The notes beneath the pieces were generated by a model. That model saw nothing but the letters and a program-made list of their open reading frames with translations, had not been told where the DNA came from and did no database searches. Shown here piece after piece: positions 43,163-48,239 of a stretch of 64,000 nt of DNA (position 1 is its first letter; each line of letters begins with the position of its first letter). Position numbers and translations under genes: made by a program. Source of the stretch: Prochlorococcus sp. AG-363-M21 (GTDB lineage Bacteria > Cyanobacteriota > Cyanobacteriia > PCC-6307 > Cyanobiaceae); the NCBI GenBank assembly GCA_003278305.1, contig QCFU01000006.1, positions 1 to 64,000 of the forward strand, in the 5' to 3' direction.

Positions 43163-44101
43163 TTAACTAAGAGCTCCTCCACAACTTGACCCGCTACCAG
43201 CTGTACATCCAAAACAATGATCATCAACTGTGATTTCTTTGTTTTTAAGATTAATTTTTTTGGATATAAGTTCTTTAAGTGTACGTGGCGTCAGATGATC
43301 ATTAATTCTTAATTGTTGATTGAAATCACAGTCAAATAGATTTCCTTGCCAGTCTACACTTATGGTATTAGTACACATTACTAGTGAAAGATTAGACTCA
43401 TTATGGGTTTCTTTTAATAGATTCATATAGCTTTTAAGTTTGTTTTCTTTTTGTAATTGATCAGAGAATCTGTTTATTGGCATATTAGCTAAAACTAATA
43501 AATTGTTGAACTTTATTCCGTATTCTTTGTACAAATGATTCCTATAAGCTATTTCTAATTCTTTTTGAGAAGGTGGCAAAACAGGCCCTTGTGGATTGTA
43601 TACAAGATCAATGTAAAGCTCAGTCCCTATTTCAGCATACCCAGCCTTATTTAATTCGATTAATGCTTGGATGCTTTTTTTGAAAACTCCTTTTCCTCTT
43701 TGCAGGTCTACGTTTTCTTCTAAGTAGCATGGAAGAGATGCTACTATTTTAACTTTGTTTTGGGACAGGAAATTAATCAGATGTTCATATCCAGTTTCTT
43801 TTAAAATTGTAAGGTTACATCTATCAATTATTTCTATTTTTAGTTTCTTAGCATTAGTAACTAAATATTCAAAATCTTCGTGCATTTCTGGCGCGCCTCC
43901 AGTTATATCTAGAACATTAAAGTTATATATTGAGATTGCTTCTAGAATATTTTTAATTGTTTCTTTGGTCATCATCTCTGTTCTCGCTGGCCCTGCGTTC
44001 ACATGGCAATGCCCACAAGCCTGATTGCATTTGTACCCAAGATTTACTTGAAGAACTTCAGGATTATTTCTATATATCCTTGGGAATGAAGTATCTCTCA
44101 A
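43163..44101 (-). CDS. arsS: Arsenosugar biosynthesis radical SAM protein ArsS-like
   Basis: Radical SAM enzyme of 312 residues. The [4Fe-4S] motif CNQACGHCHVNAGPARTEMM has Cys25, Cys29 and Cys32. A C-terminal Cys-rich region, typical of ArsS (DUF3641), includes MCTNTISVDWQGNLFDCDFN and VDDHCFGCTAGSGSSCGGAL. ArsS is associated with arsenosugar formation and usually lies near arsM; no arsM is in this window. The family match is good on both domains; the arsenic role is inferred. It is convergent with fur. Confidence 0.87.
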   Translation of the reverse strand: MRDTSFPRIYRNNPEVLQVNLGYKCNQACGHCHVNAGPARTEMMTKETIKNILEAISIYNFNVLDITGGAPEMHEDFEYLVTNAKKLKIEIIDRCNLTILKETGYEHLINFLSQNKVKIVASLPCYLEENVDLQRGKGVFKKSIQALIELNKAGYAEIGTELYIDLVYNPQGPVLPPSQKELEIAYRNHLYKEYGIKFNNLLVLANMPINRFSDQLQKENKLKSYMNLLKETHNESNLSLVMCTNTISVDWQGNLFDCDFNQQLRINDHLTPRTLKELISKKINLKNKEITVDDHCFGCTAGSGSSCGGALS

Positions 44102-44165: not shown

Positions 44166-45368
44166 TTAATTTCTTAAGGACTCCAAGGCTTTGATGAAAT
44201 TTATGTACTCTTTATGTCCTCCAGGTAATGTTAAATCAAATTTTAAATTGTCTTCTTTGTCTGAGATCCCTTCAAGGTTTCCATTCTTCAGGCTTGGTCT
44301 ATCAACTTCTCCATCACTACTATCTACGAAAATAATTCTATTATCTTTATTATAAGCTTTTCCTAATTGCTGTATTAGGGTTAAAAATCCCCTGTCACTC
44401 CCTCCCCTAAGCCACTTCCCTTCTCCCTTAATGATTTGAGATGTGACGGTGTCACCTACTCCTACAATTAAAGGCATATCACTTTTATTTATATGATCTA
44501 GACAGTAGGCAATTAATTCGTCCATTGACTTTGGTGCTAGCTTGACATTAAAACCAGGTCCAAAGGGAGCGAAGCCTTTTTTTGACTCAATATATTTATT
44601 GATTAGTACTAGTAAACCTGCTTCTTTCAATGATCCGTTAATTATTAATTGAATATCTGTTGTTCCAACATCATTTGGTTTGGCTTTCTTAATTATCTCT
44701 CTATCACCATTTGCTCCAAGATTTGGAGATTTGTGAAGGTAAAATGAACCCCTAAGATTTGATTTATTTGATAATTTAATAATCTCTTGCATTATATTTT
44801 CCATCATTATCTGTAATTCTATCTTTAAACTTACATTATTACCTGTAATTAGAAAAAGACTATTTAAATTAATTGTAGGAGAGAAGCGTGTATCACATAT
44901 TGCTAGCTTGGCTTGTTCGTGGATTTCTTTTTCTGTAAGCATTGGCAAAACTTTAGGGATTTCTTTAACCAACAAATCCTCCATCTTTTTAGGTACTTTC
45001 GTCAGGAACAAAAGTTCCGCTTCTGTTATTCCAGGTAATGAAATATTCCCATATCTGTCTTGATATTCAACTCCACATGCTGCTAATCCTGGCAGGTACA
45101 AACCTCTCTCTTTTGCAATTTCCGTATTATTAAGTGCTCTTTCTACTATTCTATTAACACCTCTAAATCCTTCGTGCTCACCACAAGTTAGAACAAAAAA
45201 TGAATCTTTTAGATTGAAAACACATTCAAGATAGTCTTGCCTAATTGTTCTACACATAGGATCTTTTACTAGTGGTATGCATACACCATCAATGTCTTGA
45301 ATAATAAGAAGGTCTCTTTCTTTTGCAATTTCTTTTAAGAAGTTGTCTTTGTTAGCACTTTTAAGCAT
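44166..45368 (-). CDS. Glucosylglycerol-3-phosphate phosphatase-like protein (GgpP/StpA family)
   Basis: A 400-residue protein of the salt-tolerance phosphatase family (Salt_tol_Pase), whose founder dephosphorylates glucosylglycerol-3-phosphate to the compatible solute glucosylglycerol. The HAD-like start IIQDIDGVCIPLVKDP (22-37) has Asp25 and Asp27. Later motifs include LYLPGLAACGVEYQDRYGNI, FYLHKSPNLGANGDREIIKK and MPLIVGVGDTVTSQIIKGEG. No glucosylglycerol-phosphate synthase (ggpS) is in the window, so its substrate is open. It is divergent from the 500-residue unknown gene with a 180-base shared promoter region. Confidence 0.82.
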   Translation of the reverse strand: MLKSANKDNFLKEIAKERDLLIIQDIDGVCIPLVKDPMCRTIRQDYLECVFNLKDSFFVLTCGEHEGFRGVNRIVERALNNTEIAKERGLYLPGLAACGVEYQDRYGNISLPGITEAELLFLTKVPKKMEDLLVKEIPKVLPMLTEKEIHEQAKLAICDTRFSPTINLNSLFLITGNNVSLKIELQIMMENIMQEIIKLSNKSNLRGSFYLHKSPNLGANGDREIIKKAKPNDVGTTDIQLIINGSLKEAGLLVLINKYIESKKGFAPFGPGFNVKLAPKSMDELIAYCLDHINKSDMPLIVGVGDTVTSQIIKGEGKWLRGGSDRGFLTLIQQLGKAYNKDNRIIFVDSSDGEVDRPSLKNGNLEGISDKEDNLKFDLTLPGGHKEYINFIKALESLRN

Positions 45369-45548
45369 TTCTATAAGTGATTTTTATTTAATTGGTAGTC
45401 TACTATTATATATATTTTTAGTACTCTTAGAAATGTTTTGATTACTTAAATATCTAGCATGAAATTTTAATAGAGTAATGATGCTAACCTAGCTATAATA
45501 TTTTATAAGGTTTATTCTTTATAGCCAAGTATTTTTGAATAACCACTG

Positions 45549-47051
45549 ATGGAAAACAGGTTTTTTTCTACTTCTTGTGATCAAAGATCAATTGCATTAA
45601 GGATTGAGCAATTAGAAAATGGCAGAGTAGGTTTTTTTAGTGTAGGTCTTTACCCTGCCTCTTTGGCTTATAACTGTGCGATGCAAACAAATGGTGATAA
45701 TCTTTTGCTTGCTCCTAGGCCTGGCAGAGATCTTTTTGGAGCATTTGACTCAACTTCTTTGAAGGAAATGAAAACTGAATATATAGAAAGGGTTAATAAA
45801 ATGGCTTTTAATAATAAACATTCTGGATATAATAGCCTTGCTGATCTTTTATTGAATTGCGAACTGGTCATATTAAGTTCAAATAGTAATTATATAGAAA
45901 AAGATTTAAATGAGGCTTGTAGGCTTAGAAAAGAACTTAATAGACAAAATGTCGTATTAGGATGTTTGGTTGGATCTTTTTGTCACAGTAGTGATAAAAA
46001 TAGGTCATATGTTTTGTGTCAGAAAGAACCAAATCTTGCTTTTTTCTCTGGTTTCCATAGACATGGTTCGTTAAGAAATGAATCTGATAGCTTTACTGCA
46101 AACTTTTGCCATCCTGACGCATTGACAGCCTTGCTAGGTACTAGATTATTAAACAAAATCTCACCTAACATACAAGTCACCGCAGGTGTTCATAATATTG
46201 AAGCTCAATATATAAAAGCGACGAAAAATATATCCTCAATATTTGCAGGTTTTGCGCATCACTTCCATAGAGATAATACGGGTATTTTGCCAACACTTTT
46301 GACCTTGCTTTTAGAGCAATGTTTAAGTCAGGCAGCTACAGTTTCAATGCAAAGACCAGATCGAAAAAAATTATATAGTGAACAGTTGATCCCCATAACA
46401 GAGCTTGGCTATGGAGTGCAACGTATAGAAGCTGCATTGGTAAGTGATGGAGATTTTCATCAAGTAAGGGACCACACTTTCTCTCAATTAACAGCAATTG
46501 TTGCAGACTTAAAAGGTAGTATGATGCAACCTCAGATTGGAAATCCTACAAGGAATTTCCAGGTCGGCTCTGTTTTTTCTGAAAAAATTTCGTCCTATAA
46601 ACGCTGTCCTGATTCATTGGAAGAACTCATTCAATGGTGTGAAGAGTCAGGCTTAAAGAGAGGGGGGCTAGAAGGATTAAACTCTTTAAAGTATTGGCCA
46701 GAAATAATGAAGATGTATTCAATACCTTTACAGGATTCATCGATGATAAATCTTATTTATGTTAGCATCTTTGGTAGTCCACAGGCAAAGACTATTGCTT
46801 ATAAAATATTAACTAATAGTAGAGAGTTAACTTCTTACTGTATAACATCCGTTAAGCATCCTAATGGTGCAACTTTTGGAAAACTACTTTCAAGAGTATC
46901 AGATAAAAAGTTTTTAGAATATTTAGCTAAATTTATTAAAACTAAAAATAACAAATTTCTATCAACTCAAGAAATAGATACCTATAAGGAAAACATTGAT
47001 AGTAGCAGTAGTTCCGTTATCCTTAAAATCATAAAAGAAATTCTAGGTTGA
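45549..47051 (+). CDS. Conserved picocyanobacterial protein, possible dehydrogenase-like fold
   Basis: I do not recognise a named family. The 500-residue protein begins with a segment that could be a Rossmann-like first strand and turn (RVGFFSVGLYPASLAYNCAM, 27-46). After it come LLLAPRPGRDLFGAF and LLLNCELVILSSNSNYIEKD, which resembles the second half of a nucleotide-binding domain. An all-helical second half follows (FAGFAHHFHRDNTGILPTLL; TELGYGVQRIEAALVSDGDF). This layout recalls NAD-dependent 6-phosphogluconate/glycerol-3-phosphate dehydrogenases but no decisive motif is seen. It lies 42 bases upstream of a NahK-like kinase and is divergent from the GgpP-like phosphatase. Confidence 0.7.
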   Translation: MENRFFSTSCDQRSIALRIEQLENGRVGFFSVGLYPASLAYNCAMQTNGDNLLLAPRPGRDLFGAFDSTSLKEMKTEYIERVNKMAFNNKHSGYNSLADLLLNCELVILSSNSNYIEKDLNEACRLRKELNRQNVVLGCLVGSFCHSSDKNRSYVLCQKEPNLAFFSGFHRHGSLRNESDSFTANFCHPDALTALLGTRLLNKISPNIQVTAGVHNIEAQYIKATKNISSIFAGFAHHFHRDNTGILPTLLTLLLEQCLSQAATVSMQRPDRKKLYSEQLIPITELGYGVQRIEAALVSDGDFHQVRDHTFSQLTAIVADLKGSMMQPQIGNPTRNFQVGSVFSEKISSYKRCPDSLEELIQWCEESGLKRGGLEGLNSLKYWPEIMKMYSIPLQDSSMINLIYVSIFGSPQAKTIAYKILTNSRELTSYCITSVKHPNGATFGKLLSRVSDKKFLEYLAKFIKTKNNKFLSTQEIDTYKENIDSSSSSVILKIIKEILG

Positions 47052-47093
47052 TAATACCTTTTGATATTATGGTAAATATATTTTTCTAATCTT

Positions 47094-48239
47094 TTGACAA
47101 GCCAATTACAACTCACCCAAAATTATATACAAAGTATAGCAAAACATTTTGTCCCTGACAAAACAATTTCTGAAATCAATCAAATAAATTCAGGTAACAT
47201 TAATTTAACCTACTTAGTTTCTCTTGGTGCTGGATCTGATATTTTCTCAATGATACTTCAGCAGGTAAACTCTAGTATTTTCGAGGATATAGATGGGTTG
47301 AATTCTAATGCGATAAATTTAGAAAACCATCTAAAGTATATAAAAGAAATTAATTGTGTAGATCCTATTCTCAGAATACCAAAATTATTAAATAATGATA
47401 TATCGCATTCTAGGTATTTACAAAAAGATGGAAATATATGGAGGGCATATGAATATATTGATGGTAAGTGTTTTGGCTCTGGATCTATTTCAAATAATAA
47501 TTTATTTAATTTAGGTAAGGGCTTGGCCTTGTTTCATTCCTCTTTTAAGGATATGTCATCATTAAAAATTAAAGCTACTAAGCCAGACCTGCACAACTTA
47601 ATGAATTATTTATCTCTTTATGATCATAAGGTTAAGAATATTCACTCTAAGGATGTTAAATATTTACCATATTCCAGTCGTCTTGACAGACTATTTAATA
47701 TTGTTCGCCATAACAGAGATTTGTTTATGCCTTTAATTATATCATTAAATAATAATAACCATTTTAAAACTGTTATTCATGGAGATCCGAAAATCTCAAA
47801 TTTTATATTTGATAAATCTCAAAATGATGTTATAGCCTTAATAGATTTAGATACAATTAGTTATGACTATATTCTTTTTGACATAGCAGATTGCTTACGC
47901 TCTGCATGTAACAAGTTAGGTGAGGAATCACAAAATATAAATGATATTAATTTTGATCTCAAAGCTTTTGAATTAATAATAAAAGGTTACTTAACTCTTT
48001 CTTCAGGGCTCTTTGCAGAAGTAGATTGTGAGTTTTTTGTGGAATCACTAGCCCTTATACCCTTCGAGCTTGGGCTCAGGTTCCTAATCGATTATTTAGA
48101 TGGTGACATCTATTTTAAAACTTCATACCCTCTAAATAATTTATACAGAGCAGAAGTCCAATTCCAGCTTTTTCAAGACATCATCTGTAAACAAGCTGAA
48201 ATGCTAAATATTTTTCAAAAGTCTTTCAGTCAGTTTTGA
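47094..48239 (+). CDS. NahK-like sugar kinase (APH-fold phosphotransferase)
   Basis: A 381-residue APH-fold kinase resembling N-acetylhexosamine 1-kinase (NahK). The N-terminal lobe shows ISEINQINSGNINLTYLVSL and FSMILQQVNSSIFEDIDGLN, the NahK-like pattern. The catalytic loop is VIHGDPKISNFIF with His229 and Asp231, and the metal-binding motif ALIDLDTISYDYILFDIADC is near 250. The TTG start (47094) gives the full N-terminal lobe. It probably phosphorylates a sugar or sugar derivative at C1, but the substrate is unknown. It follows the 500-residue protein in the same direction. Confidence 0.8.
   Translation: MTSQLQLTQNYIQSIAKHFVPDKTISEINQINSGNINLTYLVSLGAGSDIFSMILQQVNSSIFEDIDGLNSNAINLENHLKYIKEINCVDPILRIPKLLNNDISHSRYLQKDGNIWRAYEYIDGKCFGSGSISNNNLFNLGKGLALFHSSFKDMSSLKIKATKPDLHNLMNYLSLYDHKVKNIHSKDVKYLPYSSRLDRLFNIVRHNRDLFMPLIISLNNNNHFKTVIHGDPKISNFIFDKSQNDVIALIDLDTISYDYILFDIADCLRSACNKLGEESQNINDINFDLKAFELIIKGYLTLSSGLFAEVDCEFFVESLALIPFELGLRFLIDYLDGDIYFKTSYPLNNLYRAEVQFQLFQDIICKQAEMLNIFQKSFSQF

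Follow-up and report, generated by a model that had tools for sequence, protein, structure and literature searches.

The closest described counterparts of the locus reported here are the NAD(P)-dependent glycerol-3-phosphate dehydrogenases (GPDHs) of the GpsA/GPD1 family and the glucosylglycerol pathway (GgpS, GgpP and GgtABCD) of Synechocystis; the acceptor of GgpS is glycerol-3-phosphate (G3P; PMC6753628). In Prochlorococcus and marine Synechococcus, all phospholipids and glycolipids are built on G3P. Beck et al. (2012) left EC 1.1.1.94 unannotated in Prochlorococcus and in Synechococcus WH7803, with no candidate gene (PMC3369817), and Cabello-Yeves et al. (2022) reported gpsA from freshwater strains and SC5.2, and from marine and brackish strains an FAD-linked glpA (PMC9361551). 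We have analysed positions 44166-48239 of a 64,000-nucleotide stretch (the window) of contig QCFU01000006.1 from Prochlorococcus sp. AG-363-M21, a 1.16 Mb genome, 70% complete, of the Prochlorococcus/Synechococcus family. We consider it quite probable that X, the 500-residue protein encoded there, acts as an NAD(P)H-dependent sn-G3P dehydrogenase, one that has diverged strongly and has replaced GpsA in Prochlorococcus and the majority of marine Synechococcus. This reading is based on the genes, the predicted fold, conserved residues, a complementary distribution and the neighbourhood, from which we infer the enzyme activity, the direction of the reaction and the order of evolutionary events. 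No paper proposing X was found in the open literature, most subscription papers lying outside the search.

Profile searches gave X no Pfam or NCBIfam family at E≤1, PF01210 and PF07479 included, as the first-pass annotation of this DNA had already supposed, and phmmer detected no relative among PDB sequences. The AlphaFold2 model, with 21 homologues in the alignment, has a pLDDT of 84.5 and a pTM of 0.85, and bears out that annotation's guess of a "dehydrogenase-like" protein. When the model was compared with solved structures, the top 16 entries were all NAD(P)-dependent GPDHs (Z-scores 23.6-27.9), spanning bacterial GpsA and archaeal, human, yeast, Leishmania, Plasmodium and Dunaliella enzymes. 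They include the GpsA 3k96 (Z 27.9, root-mean-square deviation 3.1 over 310 residues), 1txg (Z 27.1) and human GPD1 (1x0v, Z 26.2); the match covers model residues 22-434, with some 300-330 residues aligned. Ketopantoate reductase, the next fold family, reaches only Z 14.3, and Foldseek concurs on the GPDH fold (E 1.2e-10). The model thus predicts the two-domain GPDH fold across the full length of X. Two other candidates were rejected by alignment: an opine dehydrogenase, since N-(1-D-carboxylethyl)-L-norvaline dehydrogenase scores only Z 12.1, far below the GPDHs, and a mannitol dehydrogenase, of which there was none among the matches listed, GPDH standing far above all other families there. 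The known enzyme that X resembles is one related to glucosylglycerol, and the solute-metabolism link drawn in the first-pass annotation is upheld in that G3P, the GPDH product, is a substrate of glucosylglycerol synthesis.

Residue conservation was scored on 26 X sequences, ranging from high-light Prochlorococcus to Leptolyngbya. In a profile alignment, the Lys-Asn of GPDHs is matched by K226-N227 of X, their Asp by D320, their Arg-Asn by R335-N336 and their C-terminal EG by E375-G376, while S324 lies four residues past D320, matching the spacing of Thr264 in human GPD1; all of these residues are invariant (26/26). We take the human GPD1 counterparts to be K204-N205, D260, T264 and R269-N270. 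The putative catalytic and phosphate-binding residues occur in the GPDH order, but because the alignment of X with GPDHs is not significant by sequence score, the equivalences are supported but not proven. R57 and R60, after the second strand, are also invariant and may point to a preference for NADPH. On this evidence X would work like a GPDH yet lies outside the described GpsA/GPD1 sequence family.

X, canonical GpsA (PF07479), ggpS, ggpP and the kinase gene of this locus were each sought in one set of 300 family genomes; the good genomes among them are 197 Cyanobiaceae genomes, and the strain-group names of our G-numbered genomes are inferred. X homologues, about 50-69% identical, occur in 159 of the 300. 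Of the good genomes, 100 carry X without canonical gpsA and 74 the reverse; 21 have both genes and two neither, a complementarity with a Fisher p of 7e-32 that is uncorrected for phylogeny, several lineages sharing one event. At least one of the two genes is present in 195 of the 197, a count which is independent of the phylogeny issue. The genomes with neither are G013 (90% complete) and G073 (94% complete), perhaps because of assembly gaps; both of these, and G101, carry ggpS and ggpP without X, and G101 has gpsA. The genes gpsA, glpD and glpK are all absent from eight complete or near-complete Prochlorococcus genomes (G151, G269, G017, G078, G093, G065, G129 and G003) and likewise from Synechococcus G071, while PlsY, the acyltransferase that consumes G3P, is kept in every one of them. 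This makes X the only visible source of G3P in these genomes. Synechococcus WH7803 also carries the X gene.

Beyond the family X is rare: it was found in one non-family genome among those sampled, plus two Leptolyngbyaceae. These homologues (L130, L157 and L202) nest with brackish Synechococcus in the tree, which suggests horizontal transfer among saline cyanobacteria. Assembly contamination was not supported as their origin, since the neighbouring genes match none of the picocyanobacterial loci compared and the sequences form branches of their own. In L130 an MscS channel gene adjoins X. No X was found in the phages or plasmids searched.

If the assignment is correct, X would reduce dihydroxyacetone phosphate (DHAP) with NAD(P)H to sn-G3P. 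PlsY would then channel this G3P into phospholipids and glycolipids, and in genomes with ggpS the same G3P would also be the acceptor from which GgpS and then GgpP make glucosylglycerol. X was probably first a gene of the glucosylglycerol set, a dedicated G3P source, and would have become the sole source after the loss of gpsA. The features of the locus are as follows.

45549-47051, plus strand: X, the 500-residue protein with a divergent GPDH fold, proposed NAD(P)H-dependent G3P dehydrogenase (open reading frame, AlphaFold fold, residues, distribution)
44166-45368, minus strand: ggpP, 400 aa, TIGR02399, with a HAD / trehalose-6-phosphate phosphatase fold; C62/C98 variant
45369-45548, no strand: divergent intergenic region of 180 bp shared by ggpP and X (open reading frame boundaries and neighbourhood)
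47094-48239, plus strand: APH-fold NahK-like kinase, 381 aa, accessory neighbour (family and PDB match, distribution)
43163-44101 of the window, minus strand: ArsS-type radical SAM protein (TIGR04167, 438 bits; arsenosugar biosynthesis)

The positions and strands given to ggpP, X and the kinase in the first-pass annotation proved correct, and the three are conserved genes rather than chance open reading frames, since homologues recur across the family genomes (X in 159, GgpP in 165 and the kinase in 214 of the 300). ggpP accompanies X in 157 of the 159 genomes that bear it. Of 139 genomes, 89 have the two genes divergent and no more than 600 bp apart, and 126 have them within 13 kb of each other. 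A divergent promoter region shared by them had been suggested: the pairing is indeed conserved, but promoter-like matches in 45369-45548 are no commoner than in shuffled sequence. In RCC307-type genomes X lies inside a ggpS-ggtBCDA-X-ggpP cluster, followed by a GH13 (TreS-like) gene.

Several observations weigh against X being a G3P dehydrogenase. A profile of 21 X sequences retrieves no GPDH from the PDB sequences (hmmsearch), and hhalign of X against canonical GpsA gives E-values of 0.06-0.27, which are not significant, both alignments being shallow (Neff about 2-4); the best local alignments fell on the catalytic KN in one run and on the RN/EG region in another. The GxGxxG motif is not kept: X has S31-x-G33-x-Y35-P36 instead, SxGxYP being present in 25 of the 26 sequences and the first glycine replaced in all. 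Position 141, which in an alignment-dependent comparison corresponds to K120 of the GPD1 KG motif, is V, A or S before an invariant G142, and an invariant H170-R171-H172 finds no match in the GPDH sequences compared. With GxGxxG and K120 lost, the substrate or mechanism of X may differ. Its co-occurrence with ggpP is also closer than lipid synthesis alone would call for. X could then have the GPDH fold and serve a solute pathway with GgpP by acting on some other phosphorylated keto-compound, G3P coming from an unrecognised enzyme, and the missing lysine and glycine motif, the novel HRH motif and the tie to ggpP would all suit such a role. We regard this as unlikely, for it requires a second unknown enzyme for G3P and leaves the complementarity of X and gpsA in 195 of 197 good genomes unexplained, and the phosphate-binding and catalytic residues of GPDHs appear to be kept.

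It is very improbable that marine picocyanobacteria obtain G3P through FAD-linked GlpA/GlpD and glycerol kinase, with X unrelated to G3P. GlpD normally oxidises G3P. Neither gene occurs in Synechococcus G071 or in the complete Prochlorococcus tested, high-light and low-light alike, and gpsA is lacking there too; Prochlorococcus genomes without glpD and glpK already imply that G3P is made without them. GlpA has been described as the variant of marine and brackish strains (PMC9361551), and many Synechococcus, with a few genomes of the Prochlorococcus lineage, do carry glpD-type and glpK genes; the reported glpA cannot serve strains that lack it. The first-pass annotation had placed X, the kinase and the phosphatase in one sugar-phosphate interconversion pathway, and the three genes do adjoin one another here, as they do in many marine Synechococcus and low-light Prochlorococcus. 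That proposal fared poorly and now seems highly unlikely: none of the g17 (high-light type) Prochlorococcus sampled, which keep X and ggpP, has the kinase, it is common in genomes without X, and in several marine Synechococcus, including WH7803, an SbcC/SbcD-like pair lies between X and the kinase (L071:10048-14018, L147:7506-11386). Across genomes X and ggpP stay together, while the kinase lies largely apart; the kinase is a neighbour, not a fixed partner of the X/ggpP unit.

The assignment of X as a G3P dehydrogenase leaves ggpP to be accounted for. The product of 44166-45368, previously called GgpP/StpA-like, is by its sequence a true member of the GgpP family (TIGR02399, PF09506): it scores 531 bits against the curated TIGR02399 cut-off of 365.5, matches the trehalose-6-phosphate phosphatase fold (Z 22) and has an invariant D25xD27 nucleophile motif (HAD DxD), the catalytic residues being kept in genomes without ggpS. 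That no synthase is at hand was also noted correctly, as no GT20/ggpS gene was found in the AG-363-M21 genome (70% complete) or in complete Prochlorococcus relatives; ggpS is absent from most Prochlorococcus, and 69 genomes, 50 of them good assemblies, have X without it. Prochlorococcus MIT 9303, with ggpP and no ggpS, makes no glucosylglycerol (PMC11505929). In such genomes, AG-363-M21 among them, GgpP would have to act on another substrate, and 31 of 35 GgpP sequences from genomes without ggpS carry C62 and C98, whereas all nine from genomes with it carry N62 and G98. The C62/C98 form may go back to one change in a common ancestor. A changed substrate is plausible, as residue 62 comes just after the presumed threonine of HAD motif II, and the two cysteines could reflect either such a change or redox control. 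A sucrose-phosphate phosphatase activity has been suggested for these GgpPs (PMC11505929); alternatively they might hydrolyse G3P to glycerol. X and the C62/C98 GgpP would then form a two-gene glycerol module (DHAP to G3P to glycerol) in Prochlorococcus lacking ggpS, a counterpart in separate genes of the fused Dunaliella enzyme; this is conceivable but rather doubtful.

The kinase at 47094-48239 aligns over its full length (residues 11-370) with the NahK structure 4ocj at E 4e-32, in agreement with its earlier description as a NahK-like APH-fold kinase, and appears from this match to be a NahK-like relative and candidate sugar kinase. In genus g5 a tyrosine recombinase gene lies beside X (L069:8005-9483), with about 8 kb separating it from the kinase, which suggests an insertion site for a genomic island. 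On the other side, the ArsS-type gene shares the orientation of ggpP and lies 64 bp downstream of it, an order kept in Prochlorococcus and several Synechococcus; co-transcription of the pair is possible.

Prochlorococcus, the most abundant phototroph, has so far had no recognised gene for making G3P, and X is a testable candidate. It suggests that these cells exchanged an essential enzyme for one whose sequence no longer betrays its kinship, and it connects the genes of solute synthesis with the disappearance of a core lipid gene at the marine/freshwater divide. The puzzle of the orphan ggpP likewise becomes testable; were the glycerol module real, the most abundant phototroph would make glycerol as a solute or exudate.

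Compared with GpsA/GPD1 (PF01210 plus PF07479), X shares the predicted full-length fold, with Z up to 27.9, and it stands in for gpsA across genomes; what may be the catalytic Lys-Asn, Asp and Ser/Thr and the phosphate-binding Arg-Asn follow the GPDH order. It differs in having no Pfam or NCBIfam match, in SxGxYP replacing GxGxxG, in the loss of the K120 equivalent and in the invariant HRH motif; it is also about 150 residues longer, the extra parts including a beta-hairpin (293-308) and a low-confidence, helical C-terminal tail. The kinase resembles NahK over its whole length, but is only about 30-40% identical even among picocyanobacteria. With respect to the Synechocystis glucosylglycerol pathway, GgpP is a member by sequence and X sits within the complete cluster of RCC307-type genomes, whereas ggpS is absent here and from most Prochlorococcus, and X is no part of the pathway as described. 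A further parallel is the Dunaliella salina enzyme DsGPDH (6iuy), which we take to be a phosphatase domain fused to a GPDH that makes glycerol as an osmolyte. X and ggpP are separate divergent genes, and the phosphatase is of the GgpP/trehalose-phosphate type; as in DsGPDH, a predicted GPDH fold (Z 26.0) is paired with a HAD-fold phosphatase, here encoded next door.

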